This document shows positions 1,238-34,010 of a stretch of DNA of 38,786 bases, piece after piece. Position numbers and translations under genes: made by a program. The stretch covers positions 1 through 38,786 of the IMG/VR virus record IMGVR_UViG_3300031989_000021. One strand, given 5' to 3'. Source of the DNA: a virus. The notes under the pieces were generated by a model. The model was not told the origin of the DNA, made no database searches, and was given only the letters and a program-made list of their open reading frames with translations. The stretch's first letter is position 1. The number at the start of each line of letters is the position of its first letter.

Positions 1238-1266
1238 GGACGGGCTCCTGTGACGACCACAGCGAG

Positions 1267-1279
1267 CGCGTCCTGCGCA
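1267..1279 (-). promoter_or_regulatory. Leader hairpin A with CAGGA loop
   Basis: The minus-strand RNA reads UGCG-CAGGA-CGCG, a four-base-pair stem (one G-U pair) around a five-base loop that contains GGA. It begins about 7 nt after the predicted transcription start and ends 29 nt before ATG 1237. An 18-nt block holding this hairpin (1262-1279) is identical to 4697-4714. It belongs to a set of four, with the others at 4702, 19059 and 30606. Confidence 0.55.
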
Positions 1280-4008: not shown

Positions 4009-4342
4009 CTCGCCCTCCACCCTGGGAACGCTCGATCAGGTATTCGACCAACACCACCGCGATCAGACCGACGATGAACGCCATTGCCGCGATGAAGCCG
4101 ACCGCTGTGCTGGCCGATTCCGGGATCGCGGCCTCGCCGAAGATCCACCGAAGGATGGTCGGCGACACCTCGCCCAGCCCGAAAGCGGTGGCCGAGCCGA
4201 TGAAGATGATGCGCAGGCTTTCACGCCACGTCGTCCGCAGCGTCGCGGACCGGACTGCACCGCCCAAGGCACCGAAGAACGCAAGCACCGCCCCCTTTTC
4301 GGTCAGCACTTGCGACCACATCCCGAGATCATTCTCACTCAC
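3992..4342 (-). CDS. Holin-like membrane protein (116 aa)
   Basis: The protein has two to three hydrophobic segments: GAVLAFFGALGGAV at about 18-31, IIFIGSATAFGLGEVSPTIL at about 45-65, and a strong helix STAVGFIAAMAFIVGLIAVV near 78-100. A polar, Gly/Asp-rich tail follows. Size, membrane layout and position directly before an endolysin and spanins fit a phage holin, which would open the inner membrane to release the amidase. The start ATG 4342 overlaps the upstream stop by four bases (ATGA). The neighbouring 111-aa membrane protein is an alternative candidate for the holin. Confidence 0.75.
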   Translation of the reverse strand: MSENDLGMWSQVLTEKGAVLAFFGALGGAVRSATLRTTWRESLRIIFIGSATAFGLGEVSPTILRWIFGEAAIPESASTAVGFIAAMAFIVGLIAVVLVEYLIERSQGGGRDGPAA

Positions 4343-4674
4343 CAGCCCGCCCTCCTCGCGTATCCCGACAGCAGGAATGCGGCGCTGGACACCAGCACGA
4401 CCGGAGCAAAGGCGATCGCGAGGCCGACGGTGACGAAGTGCGCGAAGTCCTCGACGCAGTCCCAGAACTCGCCGTCACGGGCGCGCCATTGCCAGACCTC
4501 GAAGATGGCGTAGCCTGGGATCGTGACCACGAGCGCGAGGGGCCCCCAGATCAGGACCGGCAGGCCGCCGATGAGCCATCCATGGCCGATCTGGTTGCGG
4601 AGAAACCCGCAAGGGTCATCATCGAACGCCGATGGTGTGAGCGCGAGGTTGCGGAGAAAGCGCAGGAAGCGCAT
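4339..4674 (-). CDS. Membrane protein at head of lysis operon (111 aa)
   Basis: The protein has two long hydrophobic regions (about residues 32-58, WLIGGLPVLIWGPLALVV onwards, and about 82-105, VTVGLAIAFAPVVLVSSAAF) and a basic N-terminus. It is the first gene after a predicted late promoter and hairpin leader, and its stop overlaps the start of the holin-like gene. The ribosome site is modest (AAGG about 12 bases upstream). An internal DGEFWDCVEDFAHF segment separates the membrane helices. It may be a second holin, a pinholin or an antiholin; I do not recognise a named family. Confidence 0.65.
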   Translation of the reverse strand: MRFLRFLRNLALTPSAFDDDPCGFLRNQIGHGWLIGGLPVLIWGPLALVVTIPGYAIFEVWQWRARDGEFWDCVEDFAHFVTVGLAIAFAPVVLVSSAAFLLSGYARRAGW

Positions 4675-4701
4675 AGGCTCGACCGTCCTTGTGGCGGCGA
4701 G

Positions 4702-4714
4702 CGCGTCCTGCGCA
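4702..4714 (-). promoter_or_regulatory. Leader hairpin B with CAGGA loop
   Basis: The minus-strand RNA is UGCG-CAGGA-CGCG, with GGA in the loop, starting about 11 nt after the predicted transcription start and ending 27 nt before ATG 4674. The 18-nt block 4697-4714 is identical to 1262-1279, although the surrounding sequence differs. Confidence 0.6.
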
Positions 4715-7700: not shown

Positions 7701-10700
7701 GGATCCCGCGCGGTCGCCCGGCGCCGCGCACCGATGCGCCCGTCTGCCATCGCCTGCATGGTCCGCGCCGCACTCTGGAAGCCCCGGCCACGGAAGGCGT
7801 TGGCGGCCGCCGTCAGGAACGCCGCCATCTTCTGCAGAGCCCGCAGGACCGGCCCCTGAGCGTCCCAATCGCGCCTCCACGCCCGGTAGAGTTCGGCGAC
7901 CCTCTCCTCGGACTTGATCGCTTCGCTTTCGCCCTCATAGGCGGCCTCGATGCGGGCCGAGATCTGCGCGTCGGCCCGACCGGCGCGGACCAGACCAGTC
8001 CATTCCGCCCGGGTGAACAGGCCCCATTCCGACCCCCACAGGTTCGGATCGCGCATCGCATGGACGATCTCATGCCGGGCGATGCCAGCGGCGCCCGCGG
8101 GGTCGAGTTTCCCCGACAGGGTGATGGTCCGCTCGCTCCCGCTGGAGACGTAGCGGCCGGAGATCTCGCGGCCGTGGCGGTTCAGGAGAGTGCGGACGAC
8201 CTTGCCCGTCACAACACTGGCAAGCCCGGCGTCGGCGAGTTCGCGGTTCAGAACGCTCGTCAACTCCGCGATGTCGTCGCGAGTGGGCTGGGGGTCGGCT
8301 TCAATGGCACCCCATCCTGCTGGCGTCTTGTCGGCGCGATCGACGATCGCTATGTTCAGGGTGTCGGCTCCCGCTGACGACGGCCTCGCACTGGCTTCTT
8401 TGCCCGGAGAGCTGGCCGAACCTTGGCGGGAGCCGTCTTCACTCATGTGCCTGAGATCGTAGTGGTAGGTGCCGTTGGGCGCTTCCCGGAGGATCACGAC
8501 CACGTTGTGCTTGGCACCGGCCAAATCGACGGTGACGGCGAAGCGATGGACGGCCTTGATCTGGGTGTCGGTGCCGCGCGGCGGCTCACTGGACACAAAA
8601 CGGGCCTTGGCGATCATGCCGAGCAGTCCCGGCACCATCCGAAGGAGATCTTCGCCCTTGCCTCCGCTGGTTTTCGCGGCTCCACGCCGAGAGAACCGGA
8701 CCTCCCAACCCGTTTCCTCGTTGACCACGACCTGGCTGACCAAGTTCTCCCGATACCAGCGGAACGCGCGCTTCCCCAAGTCCAGGACGTCGGCATACTC
8801 GCCGAGTTCGTCGCCGGTCAGCACCACATCGGCGCCCACCGGATCCCGGCTTTCGCGCTCGGTGGTGTCGTCGCCCGGGTCTTCGCCGCGCTTCGCCCCG
8901 TCGCGCAGTTTCGACCCTTCCTCGATCGTGGGGGCGACAAAGGGGCGTTCCTGATACAGCGGCACACCGGTTTCGCTGGCGGCCTGCATGTAGGGGACGT
9001 CGCCTTTGTCGGTGACGACAAACCAGTCCTCGGCGGTCCAGCGATGCCCGGTGACGGCCCGCTCCTTGTCACCGACATAGATCAGGCTGTCCACGGGTGC
9101 GCCCTGGCGCAGCCACGACGGCGGCGGGACCGGGTTCATCTGCAGGTCGCGATCGATCTCCGTGCGTTGCGCAATCTTCTTGGCGAGTTCGTCGGCCTGA
9201 TGGAAGGGCTCGGCCTTAGCGCGGTCGAGGCGCTGCATCTGGACCGCAAGGCTGGCCAGTTCATCCTCGCGCTGTTGCAGCCTTTCGGGGACGCGCCGGA
9301 TGTTCTGCTCCACCGACGGCAGGCTGGGCTGGTTGATGACCATCTCGCTGCGCCGCATGATGGAGATGGTGGTGTCTTCGAAGCCAGGACGCAGCGACCA
9401 TTTCGAGCGTTCGAGCTTGATGCCAAAGCCCTGCACCTCGACCGGCAGGACGCGGGTTTCGCCTTTGCCCATGCGGGTCATCTGGGCTTCCAGGAAGGCT
9501 TTCAGGGCCTCGGCGGCGTCGGGGCGGTTGTCGTAGGTGGTGCCGTCGATGGTGGCGGTGAACGTGCCTGCCTCACGCAGGGCCGCCACATGGGCGGCGT
9601 CGTCCCGCAGCGGCGGCATCTGCTCGTTGATGGACTCGATGCGGCGGGTGATCTCCTTGGTCCTGCGGACCGCATCCGCGATGCCGGAGGTGTGGATGCG
9701 CTCGCGCTCGCGGAGACGCTTGATGCCCTTGTCCAGCTTCGTCATCTGCATCAGGCGCGGGTCGCCCGCGGCCTCGGACAGGGTTTCGGCGAGGCTGGCG
9801 CCGTCCATGGTTTCCGCATCATCGACGGCGTCGCCCTCGATGACCCGCTGACCGTCCTTGGCCTTGAGGAAGGCCTTGATGAAGCGGTCCTTGATCGCCA
9901 GCACCTGCCAGCGGCGGCCGTCGAGCCTCTCGGTGAGATACCGATACTCCAGCACCGTGTTCCAGGTGTTGCCCTGCCGTTCACCACGCCCGTTGCGCTG
10001 TTCAAGGTCGCCCGGCATCCACGGCGCATCGAGGTGGTGCATCGCCCGCAGATGCTTCTGCATGTTGACGCCGACACCAAGCGTCCGGGTCTGGCCAATC
10101 ACGACCCTGATCCGGCGCTCGTTCATGGCATCGGCAACCGCCTTCTTCTGGTCGGCGGTGACGCCCCCGGCGACGATAGCGATTTCCTCGCGCTTCACAC
10201 CCTGCGCGACCAGCTTTTCGACGATGTCGTTGGCGAGGTTGAACTGTTTCTTCTTCGTCCGGGTCTTGTTGCCCTGCTCGTCGGTCTTGGTCGAGACAGT
10301 CTCATCGCTGTAGCCCTCGTCCATGAACAGGACTTGGGTCGCCATGGGCTCGTCGTTGTAGATCCGCGCGATGTTGCGCACCGCCCGGTTCGCCTTGCTG
10401 GCGGGATGATCCTCGGCCTCGGGTTCCTGCAGCCTCGCATCCATGGAGGCGCGGTTGGGCACGTTGTTGTAGACGATCGGCGCGTTCGGCCCACCGCCCA
10501 GCATGATCTCGCGCCGGGTCTTCCCATCGGCCTCCTTGAACTCCTGGGCGTAGTAGCGGACCTCGTTGAGGATGCGGCGCTGATCCTCGCCCATGGGCCC
10601 GATGTCGTGGATCACCTTCTTGTAGGGCCGACCGATCGGCTTTTCCGCACGACCGTTCTCCAGATAGTCGCGTTCCTCGGCCGTGAGGTCAGGCGCCTTG

Positions 10701-13700
10701 AGGTTCTTGCCCGACGGCGTCTCGCGCGGCTTGAACTCAGGCATCTCGGTCGCGAACACGATGTCCAGAAATTGGCCAGCCATGCGGCGCAGTTCGGAGA
10801 CGTTGATAAACGCGGCCAGGCGTTCCACGTTTTCGAAATCACCGGTGGAGGTCAGTTCGACATCAGCGACGGTGTCGGCGAAGGTCTTGAAGAAGCCGTC
10901 CCAGGTGTCGACGCGGTTTTCCCGCATCACGTCGTCCATGACGTAATACATCTGGTGGTAGATTTCGGAGAGGGTGTTGGTGATGGGCGTCCCGGTGAAG
11001 ACGTGGACACCGGTTCCGCCACGCAGGCCCTTGACGTAGGAGGTCAGGAACCGCAGCGCCAGCGACTTGTTGGATGTCCCGGTGTTGAGGCCCTTGACCT
11101 GCATCCGCGTCGCCAGCGGGGGCTTCTTGAACTCGTGGCTCTCGTCGACAAGGATCATGTCGATCCCCAGCTTCTCGAACGTGATCGCACCTTCGCGGCT
11201 GGCGCGCTGCGCCTGCTTCTCGATGTTCTCGATCAGGCGTTGCCGCGCTTTCACCATCTCCTTGGCGGTGATGGGAAGCCGCATCTTCTTCAGCTTCGCC
11301 TCGTCATCGAGGTCGTCCACGGTCAGGTTGACGCCCTCGGCCTCGGCCGCCTCGATCGCTTCCCTCTCGTAGGCGGCGATGTCTTCGGCGGCCAAGGCGT
11401 CTAGCGTCTCGCGAGACAGCGCCATGCGATCCAGAAGCGAATGCGGGATCACGATCAGATCCCAATCCTCGGTCGCGATCCGCGCCATCTGCGCCGGAAG
11501 TTCGGCCGTGGCCAAGTTGTTGATGTAAAGGATCTTGGCGCCCGGATAGGTGTCCTGCGCCTCGGAGGCGACAGCCGCGGAGTTGGCGTTGTGTGCGATC
11601 AGGAGCGGCTTCCGGGCGAGACCGTAGCGGCGGCTTTCCACGGCGATGCCGGTCATCGTGATGGTCTTGCCGGTGCCGACCTCGTGGCCGTAGATGCCCC
11701 GCTGGTTCAGGATGCCCTTCCAGATCGCGTCGGACTGATGCTTGCGCAGGCTGAACGGGTCGTCGCCGCGCTTCAACGCCATGCCCGGGAACTCCAGGAA
11801 CGACCCATCGAATGCGGGCAGCGCCACCGCGTTCATCACCTCGTTGTAGGCGATCTCCATTTCGGCCCGGCGCTCGGGATCCTGCCACAGCCAAGCCCCG
11901 AACTTTTGGCGCAGGTCGGCGGCCTTCTGGTTGGCCTGTTCAGTCGCCTTGGTATCCTTGAACGTGCCGTCCTCGCCGGCGTCATAGGTGACGGTCAGGG
12001 TCTGTGTGTTCAGCGTCGCCTCAAGGAAGCGACGCAGGCTGAGGCCGGTGCCGCGCCGGCCTGGCCCGGGCGCGCCGGTGATGTCGCTGATACCGGCCAT
12101 GTGCGCGATCCGGTCGGAGAGATCGACGCGCCAGCCCGTGGCACCGCGGACCAACACCACATCGTCGTCTCGCGGGTTCTGGATCTGCAGGGTCTCGACA
12201 ATGAACTGCCGGTTGGCTTCGACGCCGACCCAATCCGCGCCGAACCTGGCCTCGATCTGGAAGTATGGGACATCCGGGGGCTGCACCGCGACCAAGGCGT
12301 CGACCGAAGCCTGCATGTCCTCGCCGTTGGCAAGCGCGTCCTTCGCATCGCGGAGTTTTTGACGGACGTTGCCGGAGAGATAGATGTCCGCGGCCTCATA
12401 CCCGCCCCCTGGCGTCCGGTAGATTGCCTTGGACTCGGCGAGGTCGGCAACAACCTCGGCCACGGGCTTCCCCGCGATTTCGGAGGTGCGGTCGAGATCC
12501 AGCACGACCGACTCGTTGCGCGCCATCACGAAGGCATCCCGGATGCTGGGGTTTTCCAGCTTTCGCGACGCCCTAACCGTGGCCTGTTCCATGATCGGAG
12601 ACGGCTCGCCGGTGCGCGTCTCCAGCGCCGCCACGAACCCGGCATTGGGGTCGCGCAGCTTCACCATCGTCTTGAGGGCGAAACTGTCCGCGATCTTGCC
12701 GTGGTCCTTGACGAAGGCGCGGTAGAGCTTCTTGAGGTCGGCGCGCTTGGTGTCAGCATCCGCGGCCCCGGCCCGGTCTGCTTCCATGACGGCATCCGCG
12801 GCCTTGCGCAGCGCGACCAGCGTGCGCATCTGGTTCATCCGCCGCGTCGTCTCCGATGCGTCGCTGGTCTTGATCTTGGCGACATCCTCGATCGGCGCCA
12901 TCTGGTCGCCGAGAACGTGGAAGACCTCGCCCTTTTCATCGACCGTCACCGAGAAGATGCGATCGGTGGTGGTGTTGGCGGTAAAGCGGGGCTCGCTCCC
13001 GCGCCGGATCGGCTTGTAGGCGTCCTTGGGGACACGGTTCGCGATGTTCTCCAGCAACTCCCCGATGTTTTCGGGGCGCTGCACGATCATCCCGGGCTTG
13101 CCGTAGGTGGTGCCGTGGCCCTTGTCCAACTTGCCCAGGATGCGGCTGGCGTCGCGCTGGAAGTAGTCGTTGACGTTGAATCTGCCGTCGCCCCAGACCG
13201 AGGAGTTCACCCACGTCTCCCCGGTCACATCGAGGATGGGGGCTTCACGCTTGCGCAGGATGATGATGTCGGTGACGACCCGCGTTCCCGCGTATTTCTC
13301 GAATGCCCCCGAGGGCAGGCGGAATGCGGCAACCAGTTCCGCGTTCTTGGCGAGGTGCTGCCGGATCCCGGCGTTCTTCTGGCCGTCCATGGTGAAGGCC
13401 GAGGTGATGCCGACGACGAGACCACCGGCGCGGACCTGATCCAGCGCCTTGACGAAGAAGTAGTCGTGCAACGACGGATTCAGGCGATCGTAGCGCCGAT
13501 CCGCGACCTTCACGTTCGCGAACGGCCAGTTCCCGATGACGAGGTCATAGAAACCATCGGGCACCCGGCTTTTCTCGTAGCCCATGATGCGGATGTTGGC
13601 GTCCGGGTAGAGCATCTTCGCGATACCCCCGGTGGTCGCCTCCAGTTCGATGCCGGTCAGGGCCGAATTGGCGGCGATTTCGGTTGGCATCAGGCCGAAG

Positions 13701-16700
13701 AAGTTGCCGACCCCCATGGCGGGCTCAAGAATGCGTCCGCCCTTGAAGCCCATGGCTCGGACCGCGTCCCACATCGCCTTGACAGTCGGCGGGTCGGTGT
13801 AGTGGGCGTTGATGATCGAGGTCTGCGCGCTGATCCAGGCATCCTTGCCGAGGTGGTCGCGCAGCCACGCGCTTTCCTCCTTCCACTCCTCTTTCGGCCG
13901 GGGATTGTCCCAGGTGCCTTGAAACAGTTCTTGCCCGAAGGAGCCCCAGCCGATGAAGGCGGCCATGGCGTCCAGTTCTTCCGGGGTCGGCTCGCGGTGT
14001 TCGTCGCGGACGCGCTGAAACGCTTCCATCGCGGCGCGGTTCTTGGTGAACCGCGCCTTGGGACCGCCCGCGAACAGCTTCTCGGGGTCGGTTATGCGGT
14101 AGTTGCCGCGTCCAGCGCCTTGGGGTTGCTTTCGGCGGGATCGAGCATCGCCCAATCCCTCCACGCCATCTCCGTCGCCTCGCCCTGGCTCATCCCCTCG
14201 CGGAGAAAAGAGATCACCGTCTGCGCGATCCGATCGGCGACGACGTGGGCGAGCGCGACCAGCGCCCCCCACTCGGTCATCGACTGCATCAGGTCCGGGC
14301 GCTGCCCCTTCCACGCCTCGATCAGTTGCGTCTCCAGCGGGCTCCCCGGTGGTTCCCCGGCCTGCGTCAGTTTCCGGCTCTCCGCCTTCGCCCACCTGGC
14401 CAGCGTTTGCGCCGTCTCCCTGGGGATCCGCATCCTCGACCTCCGTGGTGTCAGAGGCCATTGTATCAGGTTCCGGCGCCTTCTTCGATGCCTCTGCGCG
14501 CATCTTGCGGATTTCGGCAATCACGTCCTGATCGCTGTCCATGTCAGCGATGTCTTCGCCGTCCAGTTCGAAGTTCCCGCGGATCTGGTTGTAGGCGTTC
14601 CGGGCGTAGGGCTGCGCTTGTTCCAGGGTCAGCCCCATGCGCTCCATCATCGCGTCGATCAGTTGCCGGAAGCGGCGGCGGCCGGCGCGGACGTAGAGCG
14701 ACCCGATCTTGAAGGCCATGCCTACCATCTCGGGATCTAGTCCGGTGTTGGTCTGGCTTTTCAGGCGTGCTGCGAACTCGGCTTCCAACGCCGCCAGTTC
14801 CGCGTTCTCGGCCTCGGAGAGGCCCTTGAGGGCCTTCGGGGAGGGCGCGGCGAGCGTGGGCTGCGTCACCTGCGTCACCCCTGCGCCACCGGCATCGGCG
14901 GGATCTGGCGGCAGCGGGCCGGTAGGTTTCGATCGGGACGTGGCCGCGATCCGTTCCTCGGCAGTGGAGAAGTCACCGCCGCGCCGCGAGGTGTCGACCG
15001 TGATCGCGCCGTCAGGCGCGACCTTCACGTTCTCGGAGACGCGGACGCCGCTTTCGACGTAGGACCGGACTCCCCGCCCATCCTCGAACAGAGGGAGGCC
15101 ATTCGCATTGGTGCCGATGCGGCGCCGCGCATCCTTGGGGCGCTGCGGGCCGTCCTCGCGCGCCTTCGTCTTCGCCCGCCATCCCTCGATGGCTTCCTCG
15201 ATCTTGGTCTCGGGCACATCATAGGCGCCGGAGAAGAACCCGGAGCCATCGGGGGCATAGACCTCGGTGAGATTGGTCCTGCGCTTGACGACAAACCCGT
15301 CTTCGGTCGTTTGGGTTTGCTTGGTGGTCGGCTGGCCGCGGACCACCACCCTCTCGTAGCCGGGCCGCAGCGGCCCCAGCGGGTCGATCTTCGTGGTCTT
15401 GCCGGTTCCCAAGGAGGTGACGGTCAGGGGCTCGTCGGTCAGCCCCAGGGCGTCCTTGACCTTGTCGAAGTGCTTGCGGGAGAACACCCAGCCTTTGGCG
15501 CTCGCGTCCCAGGTAAAGGAGACACCGTCGACCTCGGGTTTCTCCGTGCCGGGGACGCCACGCAGCACCGCGGCCTTCTCGCGGATCGGGAAGATCGCGG
15601 CTTGGGGATTGCGAGCCCGGTAGATTTGCCCCGAGGTCATCCCTGCGCCTGCGGGGCCCTTCTTGGCGCTGGGAAGCCAGGACTTGAACTCGGGGACCGT
15701 CATCGCGCGGATTTGCATCAGGCGCTTGGGCCCGGAGCCATCGCTAAAGCCATCGGTGTAGGTCAGTGCCGCGTCCGCGCTGTCCTTGAAGCCCAGCATG
15801 ACCTTGTGTTCGTCAAAGGCGCCGGTCTCGGGATCCTTCTGGTCGATGATCCACACGGTTTCGCTAGACGGGTCTGGGCCCATGTAGAAGTCGACGTGAT
15901 CGCCGTCGGCGCCCTCGGTTCCCAGGATGCGCCCGTAGTCGGCTGGCATCTTAACCGACCACTCTGTGCCATCGGGCGCCGTTCCGCGCCTGGTGCTGCC
16001 CTTGGCGTTCTCGATCGACAGGGTGAGGCCACGCCATTCGATCTTGCCGGTCTTGTAGTTCTCGGCCTCGGCCTGCGCGGGGGTGGGCGACGGGTTGGTT
16101 TCGGATGCTGCGGCCTCGAACTCCTCGCGCGTCGGAGTCTCCTCCTCGCGCGGCGGTGGCGCATCCTGCGCGCCCGGGGGCGCGTCTGGCGCCGGGCTGG
16201 TGGGTGCAGCCGGTGCCGCACCGGGCGCGGGAGGCGCGGCCGCCTCGGGCGTGACCGTGCCGGTCTTCTTGGCCTGCGACCACAGCGCCACGGTCTTGTC
16301 GTTGGCCGGGAACACCTTGGAATCGGGCATTGGCGGTGCCTCGGCGTCGTTCCCGGGGCGCGGTGCATCGGTGGTTTCGGTTTTGTCGGTGGGGAAGCCA
16401 TAGGCCTCGAAGTTGTCGATCCACTGCAGCGCGTTGCCCAAGGGCCCGCCGTCGTTCACAAGTTCGCCGGTTTCCTCGTCCCGTTCCGGCATGTTCAGAT
16501 TGGTGTCGTCGTCAATGATCGCTTCCAGGAGCGCCTGCGCCTCGGCGACCGCCACCGCGCCTTGGTCATACGTCCCGTCAGGGCCCTTTCCGGTCGCATC
16601 GAACTGTCGGATGTCGCCGCCCTTGGCGCGGGTGGCCATTTCGGCGCGACGGGCGAGGCCGTCGAGTTCGGCGATCACCTCGCCCGCGATGCTGTCACGC

Positions 16701-19027
16701 AGCTTCGCCATCCGCTTCTGCTGGCGCGGGGAGAGACGATCCGCGATCTTGAAGGTGTAGCCGGTGACGGCGGGGGGGCGGGGGCCCACGGGGGCCGGTT
16801 GCGGCACCGGCGGCGTCACATCTGTCACATCTGTCACATCTGTCACATCTGCGACGCGCTGGCCGGGCTGCAGAACCAGCGGGCTGGACGGTCGTGCGGC
16901 ACCATCGAGGCGCGCCTTGACTGCACCCGAAAGGTCAGCCCATGCCGCGCCGATCGCCTTTCTTCCCGCGGGATTCAGGTTGCCTTTCGGCGTGCTGAAA
17001 CCCGCGCGTTGAAGCGCGTCCTCACGTTCATCCGCCGACATCTGGTCCCACGACGACCCGATGCCTTCCGCTTCCATCGCAGCGCCTTGAGCGGCGGGCG
17101 CGGCGGTCGTGACCGGACCGGTCGGCTGCGCGCCGACAGGATCCACGGGAGCGCCACCAGAAACGGCGGCAGGATCGGAGCGGGCAGGAGGCGCAAGAGA
17201 GTCAGCAAGGGAGGTATCATCTCCTTCCGTCAGCGATTGCAGTTTGGCCACGGCCTCATCGCGTCGCCGTGTCAGGGCCGGATTCCATCCGGCCTGCTTC
17301 GCCGCGGCGTTGATGGTCTCGATCTGCCGGGTGATCGCCGCGATCTGGTCGGTGTCGGCCTTGATCTGGGCGGTCGCCTCGGACTTGGCGTTGATCCCGC
17401 CCGGATCATTTACCGCGGCGCGGTCCCTGGCGATGTCGAACTCCGCTGCGGAAAGCGCGACCTCCTCGCCCCCGATGCGCAGGACGACACCCATATCGTC
17501 TTCACGCAAAACCACGGCGTTGTAGACCACTTCGTCCTGGTCCGCGATTTCGACCGTTCCGCCGGGCTTCAGGTCCGGGAACTGGCTGGGCGGCGGCGCC
17601 TCTCGCATCGGCAGTGGCGGGGCCGCGGCAACCGCCGCCTCCAGCGGACCCATGGGCGGGGGCGCGGGGAGTTGAACCCCCGCCGCCGGGCCTTGGGGGA
17701 AGCCAGGCTCACCAACGACGGGGGCGACCCCAGGCGCCGCCACGCCCGGGGTGAGGTTGGCCGCTTCCGCGGCCCGGGCGCGATCTTCCTGACGCTCCCG
17801 ATACTGTGCGACGGGCTCGACCGGGGCGCGCAGGCCCGCACCGGCACCGGCGCCGGCGGCAAAGGCCGTGGTCAGCCGCTCGATCACCTCGTCGCGGCTA
17901 TACTGCCCCCCTGCGGCGCCGGTGACGCCCATCACGATGCCTTCCTGGAGGAGTTCGGTCGACCCCTCGGCAATCGCGGCCTCGATCACCCGGGCGGCGC
18001 CGCGCGAAAGGCCGTTCTTCATCAAGGTCGAAGACAGAGACCCATCAACGGCGCGAAGCGCGACCTGGGAAGGCAAGAGCCCGCCGAACACCTTGTTCAG
18101 GCCGAACAAATCGAGGGCCGCCATTGCGGCACCGCCGCCGTATGCAAGCCTCATCCTTTGCTCCAGCGGCAGGTCTGGAAGCCGTTCCTTCACCTCCTCG
18201 TTGATTTCAGCCCCGCCGAACACAAACCCAACGGCAGGAGATGCACCCCCGGACGCGAGAAGCGCGCCCATGTAGGGAAGCGAAGCGGCGATGTTCTCGC
18301 CGACGAACTGCACCGCGGATCCGAACCCCTCAATGTCGCCGAGGCCCTTGATCTCGAACCCAGCCGCAGCCAGTTCGGCCATGTTTTGCGTGGCGCGTTG
18401 CTGAACAGCGCTCAACGGCGCGGTGCGAATGGCCTCGGCGCGTTGCTCTGCCGTTCCGGCGTCAACTCCTGCGACCTTGCGAAGGCGCTCGAAGGTCTGC
18501 CCGAGCCAACTGCGCTCCGCATTTTCCGCCATGTCGCGGGAAAAGTCGTGTCCCGACCTCATCGCTTGCGACGTTGCCCGCCCAAAAGCCAGCCCCAGCC
18601 GGGACAACGCACCGGTGGCTTGTGCTTCGGTCGCAGCGCCCTCGCGCGGATAGAGCGTGGCCTTGAACTCGGCGGCGCGGCCGAGGATGCGATCCCTGGC
18701 ACGGGTATCGCCACCCAGCACATCGAGGATGGCCTGATCCGGCGTCCTGCCCGCGGCGACCCTCGCAGCAAGATCCCGGGCCCGCTGGTCAGCCCGTGCG
18801 GCAGCGCCTTCGATCCCTCCGGCAGGGTTTTCCAGCTCGTTTTCCTGCATGGCAAGCAGGACGTTGACGCCGACGTTGTGGCGGCGAGCGGCGTCCTCGA
18901 ACGCGGATTTCAGGGTCGGCGCTTGTGCCGTCGGGGTTGCGGGCGGTGTCGCCGTGTTTTGAGGGGTCACACCCGGGGGAATGGCGCCGAGGGCGGCGGT
19001 CGGACGGAAGACGTTTCGATCGGACAT
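4769..19027 (-). CDS. Giant polyvalent protein: transglycosylase-like, PPase-like, DNA methylase, SNF2 helicase, zincin motif
   Basis: This 4,752-aa protein starts at ATG 19027 after GGGGAG. Residues 40-125 look like a lytic-transglycosylase start (HNVGVNVLLAMQENE), with hydrophobic stretches near 232-320. An inorganic-pyrophosphatase-like domain follows at about 993-1115 (EWRGLTLSIENAKGS, GADGDHVDFYMG). A methylase-like domain has EPAMGVGNF at 1768 and the motif IV variant NWPF at 1833. A SNF2-type helicase has GHEVGTGKT at 2447, DESH at 2628, FTGTP, and QRNGRGERQG at 3010. A HEIVH zinc-protease-like motif is at 3652, and the C-terminus has a membrane segment near 4450. The architecture matches phage polyvalent and DarB-like proteins that enter the cell with the DNA and shield it from host defence. 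Neighbours are ejection proteins, so injection with the genome is inferred. Confidence 0.88.
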   Translation of the reverse strand: MSDRNVFRPTAALGAIPPGVTPQNTATPPATPTAQAPTLKSAFEDAARRHNVGVNVLLAMQENELENPAGGIEGAAARADQRARDLAARVAAGRTPDQAILDVLGGDTRARDRILGRAAEFKATLYPREGAATEAQATGALSRLGLAFGRATSQAMRSGHDFSRDMAENAERSWLGQTFERLRKVAGVDAGTAEQRAEAIRTAPLSAVQQRATQNMAELAAAGFEIKGLGDIEGFGSAVQFVGENIAASLPYMGALLASGGASPAVGFVFGGAEINEEVKERLPDLPLEQRMRLAYGGGAAMAALDLFGLNKVFGGLLPSQVALRAVDGSLSSTLMKNGLSRGAARVIEAAIAEGSTELLQEGIVMGVTGAAGGQYSRDEVIERLTTAFAAGAGAGAGLRAPVEPVAQYRERQEDRARAAEAANLTPGVAAPGVAPVVGEPGFPQGPAAGVQLPAPPPMGPLEAAVAAAPPLPMREAPPPSQFPDLKPGGTVEIADQDEVVYNAVVLREDDMGVVLRIGGEEVALSAAEFDIARDRAAVNDPGGINAKSEATAQIKADTDQIAAITRQIETINAAAKQAGWNPALTRRRDEAVAKLQSLTEGDDTSLADSLAPPARSDPAAVSGGAPVDPVGAQPTGPVTTAAPAAQGAAMEAEGIGSSWDQMSADEREDALQRAGFSTPKGNLNPAGRKAIGAAWADLSGAVKARLDGAARPSSPLVLQPGQRVADVTDVTDVTDVTPPVPQPAPVGPRPPAVTGYTFKIADRLSPRQQKRMAKLRDSIAGEVIAELDGLARRAEMATRAKGGDIRQFDATGKGPDGTYDQGAVAVAEAQALLEAIIDDDTNLNMPERDEETGELVNDGGPLGNALQWIDNFEAYGFPTDKTETTDAPRPGNDAEAPPMPDSKVFPANDKTVALWSQAKKTGTVTPEAAAPPAPGAAPAAPTSPAPDAPPGAQDAPPPREEETPTREEFEAAASETNPSPTPAQAEAENYKTGKIEWRGLTLSIENAKGSTRRGTAPDGTEWSVKMPADYGRILGTEGADGDHVDFYMGPDPSSETVWIIDQKDPETGAFDEHKVMLGFKDSADAALTYTDGFSDGSGPKRLMQIRAMTVPEFKSWLPSAKKGPAGAGMTSGQIYRARNPQAAIFPIREKAAVLRGVPGTEKPEVDGVSFTWDASAKGWVFSRKHFDKVKDALGLTDEPLTVTSLGTGKTTKIDPLGPLRPGYERVVVRGQPTTKQTQTTEDGFVVKRRTNLTEVYAPDGSGFFSGAYDVPETKIEEAIEGWRAKTKAREDGPQRPKDARRRIGTNANGLPLFEDGRGVRSYVESGVRVSENVKVAPDGAITVDTSRRGGDFSTAEERIAATSRSKPTGPLPPDPADAGGAGVTQVTQPTLAAPSPKALKGLSEAENAELAALEAEFAARLKSQTNTGLDPEMVGMAFKIGSLYVRAGRRRFRQLIDAMMERMGLTLEQAQPYARNAYNQIRGNFELDGEDIADMDSDQDVIAEIRKMRAEASKKAPEPDTMASDTTEVEDADPQGDGANAGQVGEGGEPETDAGRGTTGEPAGDATDRGVEGAAPGPDAVDDRVGGAGRARPRRRRSDRADGDLFSPRGDEPGRGDGDGVEGLGDARSRRKQPQGAGRGNYRITDPEKLFAGGPKARFTKNRAAMEAFQRVRDEHREPTPEELDAMAAFIGWGSFGQELFQGTWDNPRPKEEWKEESAWLRDHLGKDAWISAQTSIINAHYTDPPTVKAMWDAVRAMGFKGGRILEPAMGVGNFFGLMPTEIAANSALTGIELEATTGGIAKMLYPDANIRIMGYEKSRVPDGFYDLVIGNWPFANVKVADRRYDRLNPSLHDYFFVKALDQVRAGGLVVGITSAFTMDGQKNAGIRQHLAKNAELVAAFRLPSGAFEKYAGTRVVTDIIILRKREAPILDVTGETWVNSSVWGDGRFNVNDYFQRDASRILGKLDKGHGTTYGKPGMIVQRPENIGELLENIANRVPKDAYKPIRRGSEPRFTANTTTDRIFSVTVDEKGEVFHVLGDQMAPIEDVAKIKTSDASETTRRMNQMRTLVALRKAADAVMEADRAGAADADTKRADLKKLYRAFVKDHGKIADSFALKTMVKLRDPNAGFVAALETRTGEPSPIMEQATVRASRKLENPSIRDAFVMARNESVVLDLDRTSEIAGKPVAEVVADLAESKAIYRTPGGGYEAADIYLSGNVRQKLRDAKDALANGEDMQASVDALVAVQPPDVPYFQIEARFGADWVGVEANRQFIVETLQIQNPRDDDVVLVRGATGWRVDLSDRIAHMAGISDITGAPGPGRRGTGLSLRRFLEATLNTQTLTVTYDAGEDGTFKDTKATEQANQKAADLRQKFGAWLWQDPERRAEMEIAYNEVMNAVALPAFDGSFLEFPGMALKRGDDPFSLRKHQSDAIWKGILNQRGIYGHEVGTGKTITMTGIAVESRRYGLARKPLLIAHNANSAAVASEAQDTYPGAKILYINNLATAELPAQMARIATEDWDLIVIPHSLLDRMALSRETLDALAAEDIAAYEREAIEAAEAEGVNLTVDDLDDEAKLKKMRLPITAKEMVKARQRLIENIEKQAQRASREGAITFEKLGIDMILVDESHEFKKPPLATRMQVKGLNTGTSNKSLALRFLTSYVKGLRGGTGVHVFTGTPITNTLSEIYHQMYYVMDDVMRENRVDTWDGFFKTFADTVADVELTSTGDFENVERLAAFINVSELRRMAGQFLDIVFATEMPEFKPRETPSGKNLKAPDLTAEERDYLENGRAEKPIGRPYKKVIHDIGPMGEDQRRILNEVRYYAQEFKEADGKTRREIMLGGGPNAPIVYNNVPNRASMDARLQEPEAEDHPASKANRAVRNIARIYNDEPMATQVLFMDEGYSDETVSTKTDEQGNKTRTKKKQFNLANDIVEKLVAQGVKREEIAIVAGGVTADQKKAVADAMNERRIRVVIGQTRTLGVGVNMQKHLRAMHHLDAPWMPGDLEQRNGRGERQGNTWNTVLEYRYLTERLDGRRWQVLAIKDRFIKAFLKAKDGQRVIEGDAVDDAETMDGASLAETLSEAAGDPRLMQMTKLDKGIKRLRERERIHTSGIADAVRRTKEITRRIESINEQMPPLRDDAAHVAALREAGTFTATIDGTTYDNRPDAAEALKAFLEAQMTRMGKGETRVLPVEVQGFGIKLERSKWSLRPGFEDTTISIMRRSEMVINQPSLPSVEQNIRRVPERLQQREDELASLAVQMQRLDRAKAEPFHQADELAKKIAQRTEIDRDLQMNPVPPPSWLRQGAPVDSLIYVGDKERAVTGHRWTAEDWFVVTDKGDVPYMQAASETGVPLYQERPFVAPTIEEGSKLRDGAKRGEDPGDDTTERESRDPVGADVVLTGDELGEYADVLDLGKRAFRWYRENLVSQVVVNEETGWEVRFSRRGAAKTSGGKGEDLLRMVPGLLGMIAKARFVSSEPPRGTDTQIKAVHRFAVTVDLAGAKHNVVVILREAPNGTYHYDLRHMSEDGSRQGSASSPGKEASARPSSAGADTLNIAIVDRADKTPAGWGAIEADPQPTRDDIAELTSVLNRELADAGLASVVTGKVVRTLLNRHGREISGRYVSSGSERTITLSGKLDPAGAAGIARHEIVHAMRDPNLWGSEWGLFTRAEWTGLVRAGRADAQISARIEAAYEGESEAIKSEERVAELYRAWRRDWDAQGPVLRALQKMAAFLTAAANAFRGRGFQSAARTMQAMADGRIGARRRATARDPGTGRFARYAGEREARIMEPEADRGARNWITKAGDLASSMLTDAMGTGGAINTLALVPGRALFEELGRDLMSAATYLDLKGKMDALRNDWQAKTAAVVDDWTSLARKKPRENAGLMQLMHDTTRAGFDPSAAYQPHPSLEWAKKTVSNSRAADYWRDAAQTIIAGEAARRATYDTFKARYDALPAEMQAMYRRVRDGYTAIADEMEKAVIENIDTAMEIQARRARREHAARLREIEDDGLIGPERDEAIAEAEKNLATAIARNGWSKKARMAKLRQVFESNRLQGPYFPLARFGKYFVTVRDGDGKVVSFSRFETEREQKKAASALAREKGVTVDTGVLGDKDTDLSQHVSADFVADVMDMLGENASPEMMEAVWQRWLETLPDSSIRLSQIHRKNRDGFSTDAVRAFAHHQFHGAHQLARLKFGLRMEDALDEARLEAAKADDSNRAGLVVDEMQRRHAFTMNPAGSQWSAMATSLAFIWYLGVSPAAALVNISQTTIMGPPIMKAAFPKASYADITRHLGRAMRDFANRGMTAGASARLTAAEKAALDDAYEMGVVDKTQSHDLASVAENGIEYRARREKIMRGIAWLFHKAEVMNREVTFLAAYRIGVEAGMDAKAAIENAASITWKTHFDYQNTSRARFMQGDIPKVIFIFKSFTVNMLWRLFRDTHQMVKGKSPETRREARTQLVGITISMMAHAGITGVWGWGLAMTLAAMFFPDMDDDDLEAAIIDAALLEGDGAGVSAWNYAMGMAFKGIPGHATGIDLTNRIGMPDLWFRNEERDMSGAETWQYLVGEFLGPIAGLGANWARAADLLGRGEWWRATEAAVPKFVRDVMRGGRFASEGVETINGDTIIENVTPLEALAQASGFTPARLSERYATNSRMMNAEERIEGERTRLQRRVGDAIRAGEPVPAGLWEKVSEFNRRYPEYPITAETIRASVRSREQASARNEFGVALNPRLNDRIRADAGATIYN
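16815..16850. repeat. Four perfect 9-bp tandem repeats in the giant gene
   Basis: The unit gtcacatct occurs four times in a row and encodes an in-frame Asp-Val-Thr run (DVTDVTDVT) on the minus strand, in a Pro-rich linker before the pyrophosphatase-like domain. Because the unit is nine bases, copy changes would preserve the frame. Confidence 0.9.
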
Positions 19028-19058
19028 CTGGGCTCCCCGGGTTTCCCCGTCAGAGCCA

Positions 19059-19071
19059 CACGTCCTGCGCG
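19059..19071 (-). promoter_or_regulatory. Leader hairpin C with CAGGA loop
   Basis: The minus-strand RNA is CGCG-CAGGA-CGUG. Compared with copies A and B, one stem pair is G-U instead of G-C and the outer pair is C-G instead of U-G, so pairing is kept while bases change. It begins about 9 nt after the predicted start and ends 31 nt before ATG 19027. Confidence 0.6.
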
Positions 19072-19085
19072 GCCTATGTCGCCAA

Positions 19086-29477: not shown

Positions 29478-30569
29478 TCAGTTGACCGGGACGGCGTAGG
29501 TGTCGATGGAGATGACGCCGAAGTCGCGGTCGTTAAACCGCGTCTTCTTGATGCCCACGATCGCCCCGGCCGCCATGGCGACCTTGTTGCCGAAGTCGCG
29601 CAGTTCCTCGTTCCAGAAATACCGCTGCTTCGTGGTCGTGCCGTAGGCGATGGCGCCAGCCTGGGCGCCGAGGAACAGCGCCCGCGCTCCGGGCAGGTTG
29701 GCGCCAGCCCCAAAGTTGTTGTAGCGGATGATCGAGGCGTCGGTATGGATGACGATGCCGTTGATCATCCCGGTGCCGCCGCGCACGAAGTCGGACTTGT
29801 TGCCCACGGCCGTCGCCAGCGCGCGGGTCATCTCCAGCCAGCCACCTTCGCCGGTCTGCTGCCGCATCCCGGTTTCCTGCCAGGGGTTGATGATGGAGAG
29901 GTAGCGTTCCTCGCCCTCGACCGTGACGGGGTTGATCTGCGGGGTGTTCAGGTCGATGGCGTTCATCATCCGCGCCCGGGCCCCGACGCGCTCGAACACC
30001 TGCTTGGTCAGGCCGTCGGCGGTGGTGATGGTGGCGATCGAGGTCGCCGACCCACCGAACATCTGGTGTGCGGCATCCGGCGCCTGGAACGGATTCCCGG
30101 CAAAGGCGCGACGGAACTTGAAGTCTTGGTTGATGCCGAGGCCGCCGGACAGGTAGGCGAAGATGGCCTGGTCGCTCCACTCGGCCAGGAACTTTCCGAT
30201 CAGTTCCTTGTTGAGCTTGCGGAGGTCGTGGACCTGCCGCTTCCGCGACATCCGCCCGCCCGCGGACCCGGGTTTGCGGACCTGGTCGATGCGCACCTCG
30301 TCGGTGTAGAACTGCATGTCTTCTTCGCGGCCCTCGGCAACATCGTCGCCCTCGATGACATCGCCGCGGAAGGACATGAGGAGGTCAAAGCTGACACGGT
30401 CGCCGGGGTCGGATTCCAGCTGCGTCTTCTCGTGGATGATCGCGTTGGGATCGGTGCCGATCCACTTGCGGTTCGCCCACTTCATCTTCTTCTTGACGTC
30501 GACTGCCAGCGTGGTCGCCCACGCCTTGACTGCCTTGACGTCGCCGACTCCAACGATGGTGGTCGCCAT
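29478..30569 (-). CDS. Major capsid protein, N4-gp56 family type
   Basis: This 363-aa protein starts at ATG 30569, chosen because AGGAA lies eight bases upstream and the upstream in-frame extension covers the promoter and leader. The sequence fits the N4-gp56 capsid family: an N-terminal arm (VGDVKAVKAWATTLAVDVKK), a basic loop (GSAGGRMSRKRQVHDLRKLN), a long spine region (KELIGKFLAEWSDQAIFAYL), and a C-terminal part with GGTGMINGIVIHTD and FGVISIDTYAVPVN. It forms the icosahedral shell on the scaffold. It has its own predicted promoter and hairpin leader and is followed by a GC hairpin, suggesting high and separately controlled expression. Confidence 0.9.
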   Translation of the reverse strand: MATTIVGVGDVKAVKAWATTLAVDVKKKMKWANRKWIGTDPNAIIHEKTQLESDPGDRVSFDLLMSFRGDVIEGDDVAEGREEDMQFYTDEVRIDQVRKPGSAGGRMSRKRQVHDLRKLNKELIGKFLAEWSDQAIFAYLSGGLGINQDFKFRRAFAGNPFQAPDAAHQMFGGSATSIATITTADGLTKQVFERVGARARMMNAIDLNTPQINPVTVEGEERYLSIINPWQETGMRQQTGEGGWLEMTRALATAVGNKSDFVRGGTGMINGIVIHTDASIIRYNNFGAGANLPGARALFLGAQAGAIAYGTTTKQRYFWNEELRDFGNKVAMAAGAIVGIKKTRFNDRDFGVISIDTYAVPVN

Positions 30570-30605
30570 GATGTGCGTTCCTGCCTCAAGAGGGGGGAAC
30601 CAGGC

Positions 30606-30616
30606 ACATCCTGCGT
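30606..30616 (-). promoter_or_regulatory. Leader hairpin D with CAGGA loop (capsid)
   Basis: The minus-strand RNA is ACG-CAGGA-UGU: G-U, C-G and A-U pairs where copies A and B have G-C, C-G and G-C. The loop CAGGA is unchanged, and the loop plus flank (CAGGAUGU) resembles the known CsrA-selected consensus. It begins about 8 nt after the predicted start and ends 36 nt before ATG 30569, directly after the CsrA-like gene. Confidence 0.6.
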
Positions 30617-30831
30617 CAAGGTCTGGGTGGTGATACCACGGATCGCGCGTTTTCGGCAAGCCCGCTGGAGTCTTGTCCAGCGTCGGCGTCGAGAACCCGC
30701 ACTTTCACGTCGTCAGGGGCGTCGATGACCATGGTGGCGCGCCCATTCGCCTTCTTGATCCTGATGCGGATCAGACCGTCACCGATGATGACGGTCTGAT
30801 CCCTTCCGGTCAGTTGCTTGACCAACGGCAC
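30616..30831 (-). CDS. CsrA-like RNA-binding protein (71 aa)
   Basis: GTG 30831 starts five bases after the scaffold stop with no strong ribosome site, so translation is probably coupled. Residues 4-46 follow the CsrA/RsmA layout. LTGR corresponds to LTRR of strand 1, TVIIGDGLIRIRI to T-x-M-I-G-D and strands 2-3, and ATMVIDAPDDVKVRV to V-R-I-G-V-x-A-P-x-x-V-S-V. CsrA dimers bind GGA in RNA hairpin loops and usually block ribosomes. Residue R44 of E. coli CsrA aligns with Val, although an Arg is adjacent, so binding could be altered. The C-terminal 22 residues are a polar tail. The next operon leader carries a CAGGA-loop hairpin. The call rests on motif alignment by eye. Confidence 0.62.
   Translation of the reverse strand: MPLVKQLTGRDQTVIIGDGLIRIRIKKANGRATMVIDAPDDVKVRVLDADAGQDSSGLAENARSVVSPPRP
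30630..30659 (-). promoter_or_regulatory. Putative late promoter D (capsid)
   Basis: On the minus strand TTGCCG (30654-30659) is followed after exactly 18 nt by TATCAC (30630-30635). It lies inside the end of the CsrA-like gene. The predicted start near 30623 gives a leader of about 54 nt before the capsid ATG. Confidence 0.58.
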
Positions 30832-30835
30832 GAGA

Positions 30836-31762
30836 TTACTGGCTCGCCAGCCAGGCTTCGAGGGCTTCGGGTGACAGCTTCTCGATTGCGGCCTCTGCGA
30901 TGTAGGGGTTGTCGCTTTCGAGAAGCCGATCCAAGGCCGCGAATGTGCCATCCACTGCGGCGCCGGTGTCGGACTGCGGGACAAAGGCCAGCGTCGGCTG
31001 TGGCGCCTTGGGAGCGGCCGCGGGCGCCGTTGCTCCCGGTGCGGGGCGAGCCTGCCCGGGCGTCACCGGCGCCGGGAGTTCGACACCTGCGGCCGCAAAG
31101 GTCTGGCGGTAGGTGTTCATGGCCGCGGTGAAGACCTGGTCGACGGTCATCGACTTGGCTTCCGGGCTTCTCTGGATCGCCAACACGCGCTCGTTGAAGC
31201 CGGTGACGTGGACCGGAGCCCAGAAGGTTGGGTTCGCCTCCTTGATTTGTTCGACGCGCGACCAGTAGGCGGCGACAGTCTGCTGCTGATAGGCCTGTGC
31301 CGCCTCGTCGGCCCGCGTCAACTCCAACTGCGCGGCGACGCGGGCCTGGTCGATTTCCGCCTGCTTCGTCCGCAATTCCTCGCGGCTGATCTCGCCGTTG
31401 TCATACTGGTCGAGAAGGGCATCCTTCTGCCCATCCAGTTCCGCAATCCTCGTCTGCACCGCGGTGCGGTCGATCGGCGGCGGCGGTTCCGCAGGCGCGG
31501 CGGGCGCGGGAGGCTCTGCGGGCGCGGGCGGATCGTTGGCGGTCGGTGCCGTCACATCCGGGGGCGGCGGGTCGGCGCCATCACCATCGAGGTCCACCGG
31601 GCCATCGGGCGCCTCGGCGATGCTGATGTTGGCCTCTGCCATCTCGCGGATCGCCATCGCTTCCTCGGCGTTGAGCCCGGCGATGGCTTCGGCCGTGATC
31701 TGGTCGCCCAGAACGGCCTTGTAGTCGATGCCGTCGAGGACTTCGGTTGCGGTCTTGGGCAC
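30836..31762 (-). CDS. Capsid scaffolding protein (308 aa)
   Basis: GTG 31762 is the start, eight bases after GGAG. The acidic N-terminal helix region (about 1-55) is followed by a long Pro/Ala-rich segment (about 60-97), then a highly charged coiled coil (about 98-165: RTAVQTRIAELDGQKDALLD, EISREELRTKQAEIDQARVA). The C-terminus is another Pro/Ala linker and a short terminal helix (SPEALEAWLASQ). Low sequence complexity, coiled coil, acidity and position between portal and capsid are typical of podoviral scaffold proteins, which guide capsid assembly and leave before DNA packaging. Confidence 0.8.
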   Translation of the reverse strand: MPKTATEVLDGIDYKAVLGDQITAEAIAGLNAEEAMAIREMAEANISIAEAPDGPVDLDGDGADPPPPDVTAPTANDPPAPAEPPAPAAPAEPPPPIDRTAVQTRIAELDGQKDALLDQYDNGEISREELRTKQAEIDQARVAAQLELTRADEAAQAYQQQTVAAYWSRVEQIKEANPTFWAPVHVTGFNERVLAIQRSPEAKSMTVDQVFTAAMNTYRQTFAAAGVELPAPVTPGQARPAPGATAPAAAPKAPQPTLAFVPQSDTGAAVDGTFAALDRLLESDNPYIAEAAIEKLSPEALEAWLASQ

Positions 31763-31775
31763 GGGTCTCGCTCCT

Positions 31776-34010
31776 TCACATCAGGGCGGGTTGAGGGGCG
31801 GCCGAGGCCGCGGTGGGAAGGTTCTGCGGCAGCGGAGCAGCCGAGGCCTGCGCCGTTGCCATGACGCGGTCGGTGACGGGCGCCGCCTGCGGCATCTGCA
31901 TGAGGTTGGTGGCAATGGTCAGCGCGGTCTGGATTTGCGCCAGGATTTCCATGGCTTTGCTCGCCTCGGTCTTGTCGGCATCGAGTTGCGTCTTCCGGGC
32001 CTTGGCGGCCAGTTCCATGGCCTGGGCCTCTTTCGCCGCCAGTTCCGCCTCCATCGCGCGCTGCTGCATCTGGGCCTCGGCCTGCTTGACCGCCTGCTGC
32101 TCGATCATCTCGGGGGTCGGGTTGTCGGGATCGGCGTCGGGGTCGGTCTGACCACTGATCTGCCGGATTCGCTTCACGATCTCGTCGCCGTTGGGCAGGT
32201 TCATCATCTCGACGACCAGATCGAGGATGGCGAGGGCGATCATCGGCGCCTGTGGGGCGATCTGTGCCAGCACCTCCATCAGGATCGCCAGATCGGCCTG
32301 CCGTTGCGATGCCCGCCATTCCTCCTCGCCGATGATGAAATCGGCCTTGAACGCTGCGATGTTGACGGCCTCGGGGCTGGTGCCGTTTATGACCACATAG
32401 TCGGGATTGCCACGCTGGTCGGTGATGCGGAACTCGCGTTCCTTGGTGATGAATTGCTCGACGTTCACCACCAGCTTTTCGCCGTGGATCATTCGGGCGA
32501 ACCGGTAGTTGTCGAACAGGATCGCCGTGGCCAGTTCGCCCTGATCCTGTCTGGCAACGATCGCTCGTCCCGATGTCGCGTTGGTCTGGCGCCCCATGTT
32601 CTCGTCGGTGACGCCGCCGACGGACTGGATCATCTTGGCGTCGGATTCCATCAGTTGCAGATGCGCGGCGGCAAGCTGCAGGTCGGTCTCGATCTTCGGC
32701 GCCATCCCGGCGACCGGCGTGAACTCGATCACCGCGTCCGGTCGCGCGGCTTCTTCACGGAACTCGTCCATGTCCCGGACCGACCCCTTGGGCACGAAGG
32801 CGCGGCGCGTGGACAGAAGGTAGAGGGCCTTGGACGCGCGCTTGTTCAGGTCGCGCTGCGGGTCGCGGACACCCCGGATGTAACCGTAGGGCATCCCGTC
32901 CTCGGCCCTGCGATAGCCCCAGATCGGCGTCAGCGGGAACCGGTTGTGCCGGTAGATCGAGGGGCCCAGGTAGATCAGGCCTGCACTGGTGAAGATCGCG
33001 ACATGCGTTCGCATCCGGGTCTTGGCGACGACGGTGGCGCGGCCGGCGGCGATGTCACCGAGATGCCCCGGCGATCTTTCATCGAACACCTCGCCCGAGA
33101 ACTGCCCCCCGGCGACCCATTTCTCCAGCACCGGCCGCCGATACCACGCCTCGATCAGGCGCACCCGCTCCCGATAGTTCAGGGTGCTGTCGGCGTAGAG
33201 GCCGCCGCCCTGCGTCATCATCCGCTCGTGGCTGTCCATGGCGGCGTCTCCGTAGCTGTCGAGACCGCCCAAGCCGAACTCGTAGATGCCAGATGTCGCC
33301 CTGGAGATCACCCCTGCGCGCTCCGGGAACAACGCCATCGCGAGGTCCACATCGGTCCAGCGGGTGCGGAACAGGTAGCGGGCGTCCGAATAGTCGGGTT
33401 CCCGGCTGGCGCTGTCGTGGATGACGTTTCGCCAGGATTCGTGACGATCATAGACCGGCTCGCCATCGTCTTCGGACCGGTATCCGGCCTCCAGCCATGA
33501 GAGCCCGGCCTTGACCATCTCCGCGAAGGCCGCGGAGTAGGCCATGTGGCTGTGGTTGGCGTCTCTGAGGTAGCGAAGGAACTCGGTCTTGCGGTGTGCC
33601 GTGTGCGCCCCATCCTTGCGCCTCGGCATCAGCTTGAAGTCCTTCCGCGACCGCCTCTCCTTGCCCAAGAGCCAATTCACGGAGGTGTGGATGAGGTTGA
33701 AAACGAGATCGAGTTGCCCGCGCTCGTTCAGGATCGCGCTTTCTTCTTGGGACCAGTGGCGGTGGTCGTAGAAGGCTTCATCAACCTCCATTTCCATGCG
33801 GCCGGGGGCCTGCTTGTCCATCTCGTAGAGGTAGTTGCCCAGCAGGCGCTTGTGGGTGTTCACCGCGGCTTCTTCATCCAGCGCGTTGCCCATCGGTTTG
33901 CGGGCCGCGGCCTTCGACACCTCGCCCAAGAAGCGTTTCGCGGCTTCCTCCGGCGACTTCGATGAGCCGAAGTGCCATTCGCCCGCCCGGAAATCACTGG
34001 CCTCAGACAC
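31776..34010 (-). CDS. Portal protein, P22 type (744 aa)
   Basis: GTG 34010 starts nine bases after GGAGG and overlaps the preceding stop. Length and motifs match the large P22-like portals: FYDHRHWSQEESAILNERGQ and FNLIHTSVNWLLGKERRSR near the start, then FAEMVKAGLSWLEAGYRSED, RHESWRNVIHDSASREPDYS, and YGYIRGVRDPQRDLNKRASK in the stem and wing region. A Gln/Ala-rich coiled coil occupies about residues 625-700 (the barrel-like C-terminus), ending in an Ala-rich tail. Twelve copies form the ring through which DNA is packaged and ejected, with the terminase on one side and the adaptor on the other. Confidence 0.92.
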   Translation of the reverse strand: MSEASDFRAGEWHFGSSKSPEEAAKRFLGEVSKAAARKPMGNALDEEAAVNTHKRLLGNYLYEMDKQAPGRMEMEVDEAFYDHRHWSQEESAILNERGQLDLVFNLIHTSVNWLLGKERRSRKDFKLMPRRKDGAHTAHRKTEFLRYLRDANHSHMAYSAAFAEMVKAGLSWLEAGYRSEDDGEPVYDRHESWRNVIHDSASREPDYSDARYLFRTRWTDVDLAMALFPERAGVISRATSGIYEFGLGGLDSYGDAAMDSHERMMTQGGGLYADSTLNYRERVRLIEAWYRRPVLEKWVAGGQFSGEVFDERSPGHLGDIAAGRATVVAKTRMRTHVAIFTSAGLIYLGPSIYRHNRFPLTPIWGYRRAEDGMPYGYIRGVRDPQRDLNKRASKALYLLSTRRAFVPKGSVRDMDEFREEAARPDAVIEFTPVAGMAPKIETDLQLAAAHLQLMESDAKMIQSVGGVTDENMGRQTNATSGRAIVARQDQGELATAILFDNYRFARMIHGEKLVVNVEQFITKEREFRITDQRGNPDYVVINGTSPEAVNIAAFKADFIIGEEEWRASQRQADLAILMEVLAQIAPQAPMIALAILDLVVEMMNLPNGDEIVKRIRQISGQTDPDADPDNPTPEMIEQQAVKQAEAQMQQRAMEAELAAKEAQAMELAAKARKTQLDADKTEASKAMEILAQIQTALTIATNLMQMPQAAPVTDRVMATAQASAAPLPQNLPTAASAAPQPALM

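Follow-up and report, generated by a model that had tools for sequence, protein, structure and literature searches.

The window analysed here, a stretch of viral DNA 38,786 nucleotides long, encodes a CsrA-like protein of 71 aa between its scaffold and capsid genes, and carries in the leaders of its late genes a hairpin, P1, that has changed together with this protein in the evolution of a large phage group, which suggests, as far as sequence comparison can tell, that the virus uses the protein on its own late genes. Our preferred reading, to which we assign a probability of roughly 0.68, is that this phage variant of CsrA binds to the leaders of the phage's own late genes and opens them for translation. 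We observed homology to CsrA, covariation in P1, covariation in a second helix (P3), co-occurrence of hairpin and gene, and a correlation between loop type and residue 44 of the protein; a phage-encoded circuit of the CsrA type is the best explanation because hairpin and protein co-occur and co-evolve. The genes concerned are as follows.

30616..30831, minus strand: CsrA-like protein, 71 codons, GTG start at 30831, stop ending at 30616; it begins 5 nt past the scaffold stop and lies between scaffold and capsid, the same site as in relatives
30836..31762, minus strand: scaffold-like protein (phrog_8246; family match and synteny), upstream of the csrA-like gene, its scaffold role inferred from position
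31776..34010, minus strand: P22-type portal protein (family match)
29478..30569, minus strand: major capsid protein (PF13252), AUG at 30569
4769..19027, minus strand: giant polyvalent protein of 4752 aa (LPD39, inorganic pyrophosphatase-like/InPase, LPD3, helicase), under its own leader
3395..4674, minus strand: lysis operon of two ORFs (4339-4674 and 3992-4342, function unassigned) and an amidase endolysin (3395-3985)
968..1237, minus strand: 89-aa ORF heading the tail/adhesin end of the window; a family search with it gave no match

The window phage is a Bcep22-like podovirus, with a PF13252 capsid protein, a P22-type portal, a giant polyvalent protein and the gene order portal-scaffold-csrA-capsid, and its capsid protein is 44-48% identical to those of BcepIL02, PEp14, Itty13 and others. 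An integrase with DUF6538 lies on the minus strand at 1350-2918, just upstream of the leader at 1278, and the element is therefore probably a temperate phage. The tail protein at 23782-24618 combines Mtd_N (major tropism determinant N-terminal) and Collar domains.

A preliminary description of this DNA had placed a CsrA-like gene at 30606-30831; the open reading frame is real, with its limit at 30616, the span given being 10 nt too long, and the CsrA-type motifs claimed for the protein are present (LT-G-R, IGDG and APDDVKV). Direct searches with the 71-aa protein alone recovered just one near-identical contig and no informative phage match, and phmmer against the PDB gave chance matches only. 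Profiles were required because such single-sequence searches were uninformative. On its own, the window protein scored 15.1 bits against PF02599 (E 0.024, under the gathering score of 27) and E 0.09 against PHROG 8397, 'CsrA-like regulator'. Annotated CsrA-like regulators occupy the same scaffold-capsid site in BcepIL02, PEp14, Itty13, SopranoGao and Parlo, and a profile built from these relatives and the window protein matched RsmE (E 1.8e-7). PF02599 matched 6/6 members of the family, with the Itty13 member above the cut-off, and a wider family profile searched against the PDB matched RsmE (2jpp, E 3.4e-13) and CsrA (1y00, E 6e-12). The match to the CsrA family that the preliminary description had anticipated thus falls below the cut-off for the window protein by itself and is obtained by the family profile, at E values of about 1e-12 to 1e-13 to CsrA/RsmE. 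The iterated phage profile recovered the window protein (31.6 bits, E 2.3e-7) and found a CsrA-like gene at almost every locus of the group, nearly always flanked by scaffold and capsid; PBC5 and Atu_ph08 also carry a CsrA-like ORF, though their gene order differs. Taken with its relatives, the 71-aa protein can be securely assigned by sequence as a divergent CsrA homologue. Other virus contigs (L060-L065) have more canonical CsrA genes with no such leader nearby, and were treated as a separate acquisition.

Structure prediction, proposed earlier as a check, gave a modelled CsrA fold. The AlphaFold2 model of the window protein (pLDDT 78, pTM 0.50) was compared with solved structures using VIA, and CsrA/Rsm chains filled all of the top eight places, at modest scores (Z 5.1-2.9); the Foldseek search with the model gave E values that were not significant, though its top match was a CsrA. 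The monomer model has a short helix at residues 49-52. The phage family has largely lost R6, lacks the C-terminal HREEIY helix and varies at R44, and the window protein has Val44 next to Arg43. The absence of the RNA contact R44 weakens the case for canonical CsrA activity but leaves that for homology intact. Residues are numbered on an E. coli CsrA and an RsmE-type sequence; the PDB searches are independent of these two. The C-terminal tails of the phage family (e.g. L067, L166 and L172) often carry a short G-I/L-T-G-like motif, possibly for virion association.

The RNA elements of the window are listed below.

30604..30616, minus strand: P1 hairpin of the capsid leader, ACGC-AGGAU-GUGC, overlapping the stop codon of the csrA-like gene; its fourth stem pair is an A.C mismatch
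30604..30610, minus strand: GAUGUGC, 5' arm of P3, a long-range helix that shares this arm with P1
30570..30576, minus strand: GCACAUC, 3' arm of P3, immediately preceding the capsid AUG (30569)
19054..19074, minus strand: P1 hairpin of the giant-protein leader, GGCCGCGC-AGGAC-GUGUGGCU, with an 8-bp stem (core 19058-19070, GCGC AGGAC GUGU)
4701..4713, minus strand: P1 hairpin of the lysis operon, GCGC-AGGAC-GCGC
1266..1278, minus strand: P1 hairpin ahead of the ORF at 968-1237, GCGC-AGGAC-GCGC

A model trained only on the capsid leaders of other phages ranked these four leaders 1st, 2nd, 4th and joint 6th across the whole window, and together they are more than chance, with single E-values of only 0.035-0.38. 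The loops, CAGGA(C/U)G, are identical in pattern to the CsrB repeats, CAGGA(U/A/C)G (PMC7652899). That four late leaders carry GGA in CAGGA loops, and that one of them adjoins the CsrA-like gene, was part of the preliminary description; the hairpins exist, on the minus strand, and that of the capsid leader does adjoin the gene. Their supposed exposure does not fit the folding predictions, in which the loops are mostly unexposed in free RNA because the 3' arm of P1 is paired to the start-codon region in a longer helix. Rfam gave no leader match at gathering score in the window, L004, L011 or L050, and relaxing the limit to E 1 yielded none in the window either. A sub-threshold match to Rfam mir-3660 at 37246-37334 was taken as chance.

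We then examined P1 before capsid genes throughout the group, where its consensus is GCGC-ANGAY-GYGC or GCGC-ANGA-GUGC. The strict hairpin with an ANGA loop was present in 96/129 unique capsid leaders, compared to 5.8 in shuffles and 6/147 far-upstream controls, and in 208/256 capsid leaders of an enlarged set; near variants were found at 31 of 41 loci that encode the protein but lack the strict hairpin. In L095, L100, L116 and L123, other stems bear ANGGAN hexaloops, the canonical Rsm loop. Covariation of the P1 stem exceeded 500/500 shuffles for leaders with a 5-nt loop, and all but one for those with a 4-nt loop. RNAalifold reported no pairs and no single consensus structure on the mixed-leader alignment, a null that was expected (and is not a confirmation) because two exclusive folds and two loop lengths were mixed; stem pairs were counted per loop class in place of that alignment. 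A -10-like box peaks 12-18 nt upstream of P1, which therefore is predicted to lie at the 5' end of the mRNA. The complete genomes examined have P1 ahead of endolysin and tail genes as well, and ahead of the gene for the giant protein, which has 4841 aa in POI1126 and 4877 aa in Atu_ph08; no P1 was seen in front of terminase or portal.

Capsid-related phages that lack the CsrA-like gene had no P1 (KLEP18-1, RHph_Y1_10, Mae-JY35, phiARM81mr, Vibrio 1.205.O, L188, L189 and L192); L188 carries an unrelated ACGA hairpin. At about 19 loci where the hairpin is present and the upstream DNA extends beyond 0.9 kb, no CsrA match was found within that available sequence. About half of these are rhizobial-type phages, whose gene, in the examples checked, is located elsewhere, and some of the loci are an unexplained exception to the co-occurrence. 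Rhizobial relatives (L158, L159, L161 and L163) have two back-to-back leader hairpins for endolysin and capsid transcripts, with divergent promoters.

In an alternative fold, the 3' arm of P1 can pair with the nucleotides that immediately precede the start codon, giving the helix P3, as in BcepIL02 (GGAUGUGC with GCACAUCC) and L050 (GGAAGUGC with GCACUUCC). Among capsid leaders (one per distinct arm), the match of each arm to its own pre-AUG bases was 5.78, compared to 4.27 ± 0.16 for swapped partners, and for 18 non-capsid leaders 0/500 swaps reached the match of arms with their own partners. Within the window, the giant-protein and lysis leaders show a weak P3 arm match. Folding prediction gave P1 a mean probability of 0.05 in free RNA, with the ribosome site mostly paired; predicted openness of the ribosome binding site rose from 0.30 in free RNA to 0.50 with P1 held, compared to about 0.40 to 0.51 for swapped segments. 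All four leaders of the window are predicted to open likewise, from 0.12-0.30 to 0.45-0.52 on holding P1. The predicted default fold thus hides the ribosome site because the P1 3' arm pairs, with covariation, just before the start codon, and the leaders look more like anti-sequestration switches, that is, sites of activation, than simple CsrA repression sites.

Loop sequence varies with the protein. GGA, which the preliminary description took as the shared feature of the leaders, was rejected as a conserved feature of the group, since GGA occurs in the loops of 37 of 80 unique capsid leaders and the other 43 carry AUGA or AAGA. Arg44 was found in 38/46 phages with GGA loops and in only 1/38 without (84 phages); in the enlarged set, R44 occurred in 75/118 GGA-loop phages versus 6/61 others, and R or K at this position in 106/118 versus 13/61. 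Position 44 has the strongest association with loop type among all protein positions, and remained first of 50 in a ranking controlled for the tree: a Pagel test on the capsid tree preferred the dependent model for position 44 (LR 33.5, p about 1e-6), compared to LR 21.2 for the next position, E10, and a median LR of 4.5. Independent pairs were concordant but not significant, there being too few of them (4.2 same versus 0.2 opposite), and in a telling close case L134, with an AAGA loop and Lys44, sits inside a clade with AGGA loops and Arg44, its close counterparts being L125 and L135. In E. coli CsrA, R44 is critical and changing it abolishes RNA binding (PMC7652899). The lack of a universal GGA, which at first seemed contrary to CsrA, turned supportive because loop type follows the protein. 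The window itself breaks the rule, with Val44 although its loops contain GGA, an exception that is unexplained. A distant clade (L175, L176, L179 and L184) retains the P1 stem but has different loops (AGCA, AGUA, AGAA and UGGA).

In the circuit that we propose, the main targets of the CsrA-type protein would be the late mRNAs of the phage itself, each starting with P1, whose ANGA(Y) loop would be the recognition site. Without the protein the leader would refold, its P1 3' arm pairing with the bases before the start codon (P3) and hiding the ribosome binding site. The CsrA-like protein would be made from the earlier portal-scaffold-csrA operon, itself without a leader, and once accumulated would hold P1 and block P3, allowing translation of the capsid, giant-protein, lysis and tail genes; late proteins would thereby be delayed until the protein has built up, and protection of mRNA 5' ends may add to the effect. 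Physical binding of the protein to the leaders is probable on the sequence evidence, and activation is the likelier direction over repression. That the phage group as a whole times its late genes by a CsrA variant trapping a 5' hairpin, and that part of it shifted from GGA to AUGA/AAGA as residue 44 changed, is a more tentative proposal, for which the odds fall a little short of even. Of the circuit first suggested for the window, a homologue, a selected hairpin and their co-evolution give partial support, while the GGA rule does not stand.

Repression is the strongest competing account: the protein would bind the leaders and repress late translation early in infection or in lysogeny, or mainly protect the mRNA 5' end. 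CsrA is most often a translation repressor and can protect 5' ends, as on flhDC (PMC7652899), where the site, like P1 at its predicted position, is close to the 5' end of the mRNA. However, P1 sits far upstream of the Shine-Dalgarno sequence and the covarying P3 uses the same arm, and holding P1 is therefore predicted to expose the ribosome site rather than to hide it; we consider this account unlikely, at somewhat over one chance in five. There is a precedent for the activation that we prefer in the E. coli ymdA leader, where CsrA, bound upstream, disrupts a fold that keeps ribosomes from binding (PMC7492729), although ymdA is a host gene with two sites, whereas here a single 5' hairpin precedes several late genes of a phage that encodes the protein.

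Two further accounts separate the hairpin from the protein. The hairpin could be a switch read by a host protein, a transcription antiterminator or the ribosome, with the CsrA-like protein a moron acting on host RNAs (CRISPR, metabolism). The CsrA genes of JC1 (PMC9144972) and CSP3 (PMC10269572) have indeed been called morons, and phage RsmA homologues have been proposed to suppress host CRISPR-Cas (PMC8450108). Unlike a moron, however, the gene is almost universal in the group and conserved in position; moreover, residue 44 varies with the loop type, and related phages without the gene lack the hairpin. A search of the 3.5-Mb host assembly (G000) and 18 same-family genomes found no CsrA, so that action on host CsrA targets, which had also been raised for this protein, is unlikely to be its main role, and the moron account is improbable. 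Alternatively, the protein could be a virion or assembly component reusing the CsrA fold, sharing with the leader only inheritance with the capsid cassette. Its gene lies between scaffold and capsid, family tails often end in the short motif described above, and one peptide was detected in JC1 virions (PMC9144972), so the protein may also have a structural role. Shared inheritance does not account for the finding that, with the tree controlled for, position 44 follows the loop more closely than any other of the 50 positions, and this account appears slightly less probable still than the moron one.

Phage CsrA homologues, including those of Bcep22-like phages, have been tabulated (PMC7366521), and BcepIL02 gp49, JC1 gp47, CSP3 orf23 and those of PEp14, Parlo and SopranoGao (PHROG 8397) are the same gene at the same scaffold-capsid site, published as moron or auxiliary genes. 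No RNA target or leader element is described in the published accounts of Bcep22-like phage CsrA that we examined, with an earlier mention in the Gill 2011 Bcep22 paper possible. The protein family is thus already known, and its likely targets and group-wide leader switch appear new. Compared to CsrA/RsmA/RsmE (PF02599), the phage proteins have a homologous core, the same predicted fold and the IGD and AP-x-x-V motifs, and the window loops equal CsrB repeats; they differ in having mostly lost R6, in many cases R44, and the HREEIY helix, and many of their target loops are without GGA, the putative targets being late genes of phages whose hosts may have no CsrA. Phage CsrA proteins have long been listed without a known target, and a concrete candidate set is now available across a large phage group, as a likely example of late genes under post-transcriptional control by a phage's own homologue of a global regulator. 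Unlike the moron view, the circuit would explain why almost all members have the gene in their structural cassette, and the group offers a natural series of protein-RNA pairs for studying specificity change at residue 44 of CsrA. In Ochrobactrum phage POI1126 (L011, 5088-5561), two tRNA genes on the opposite strand lie between the csrA-like gene and the capsid leader.
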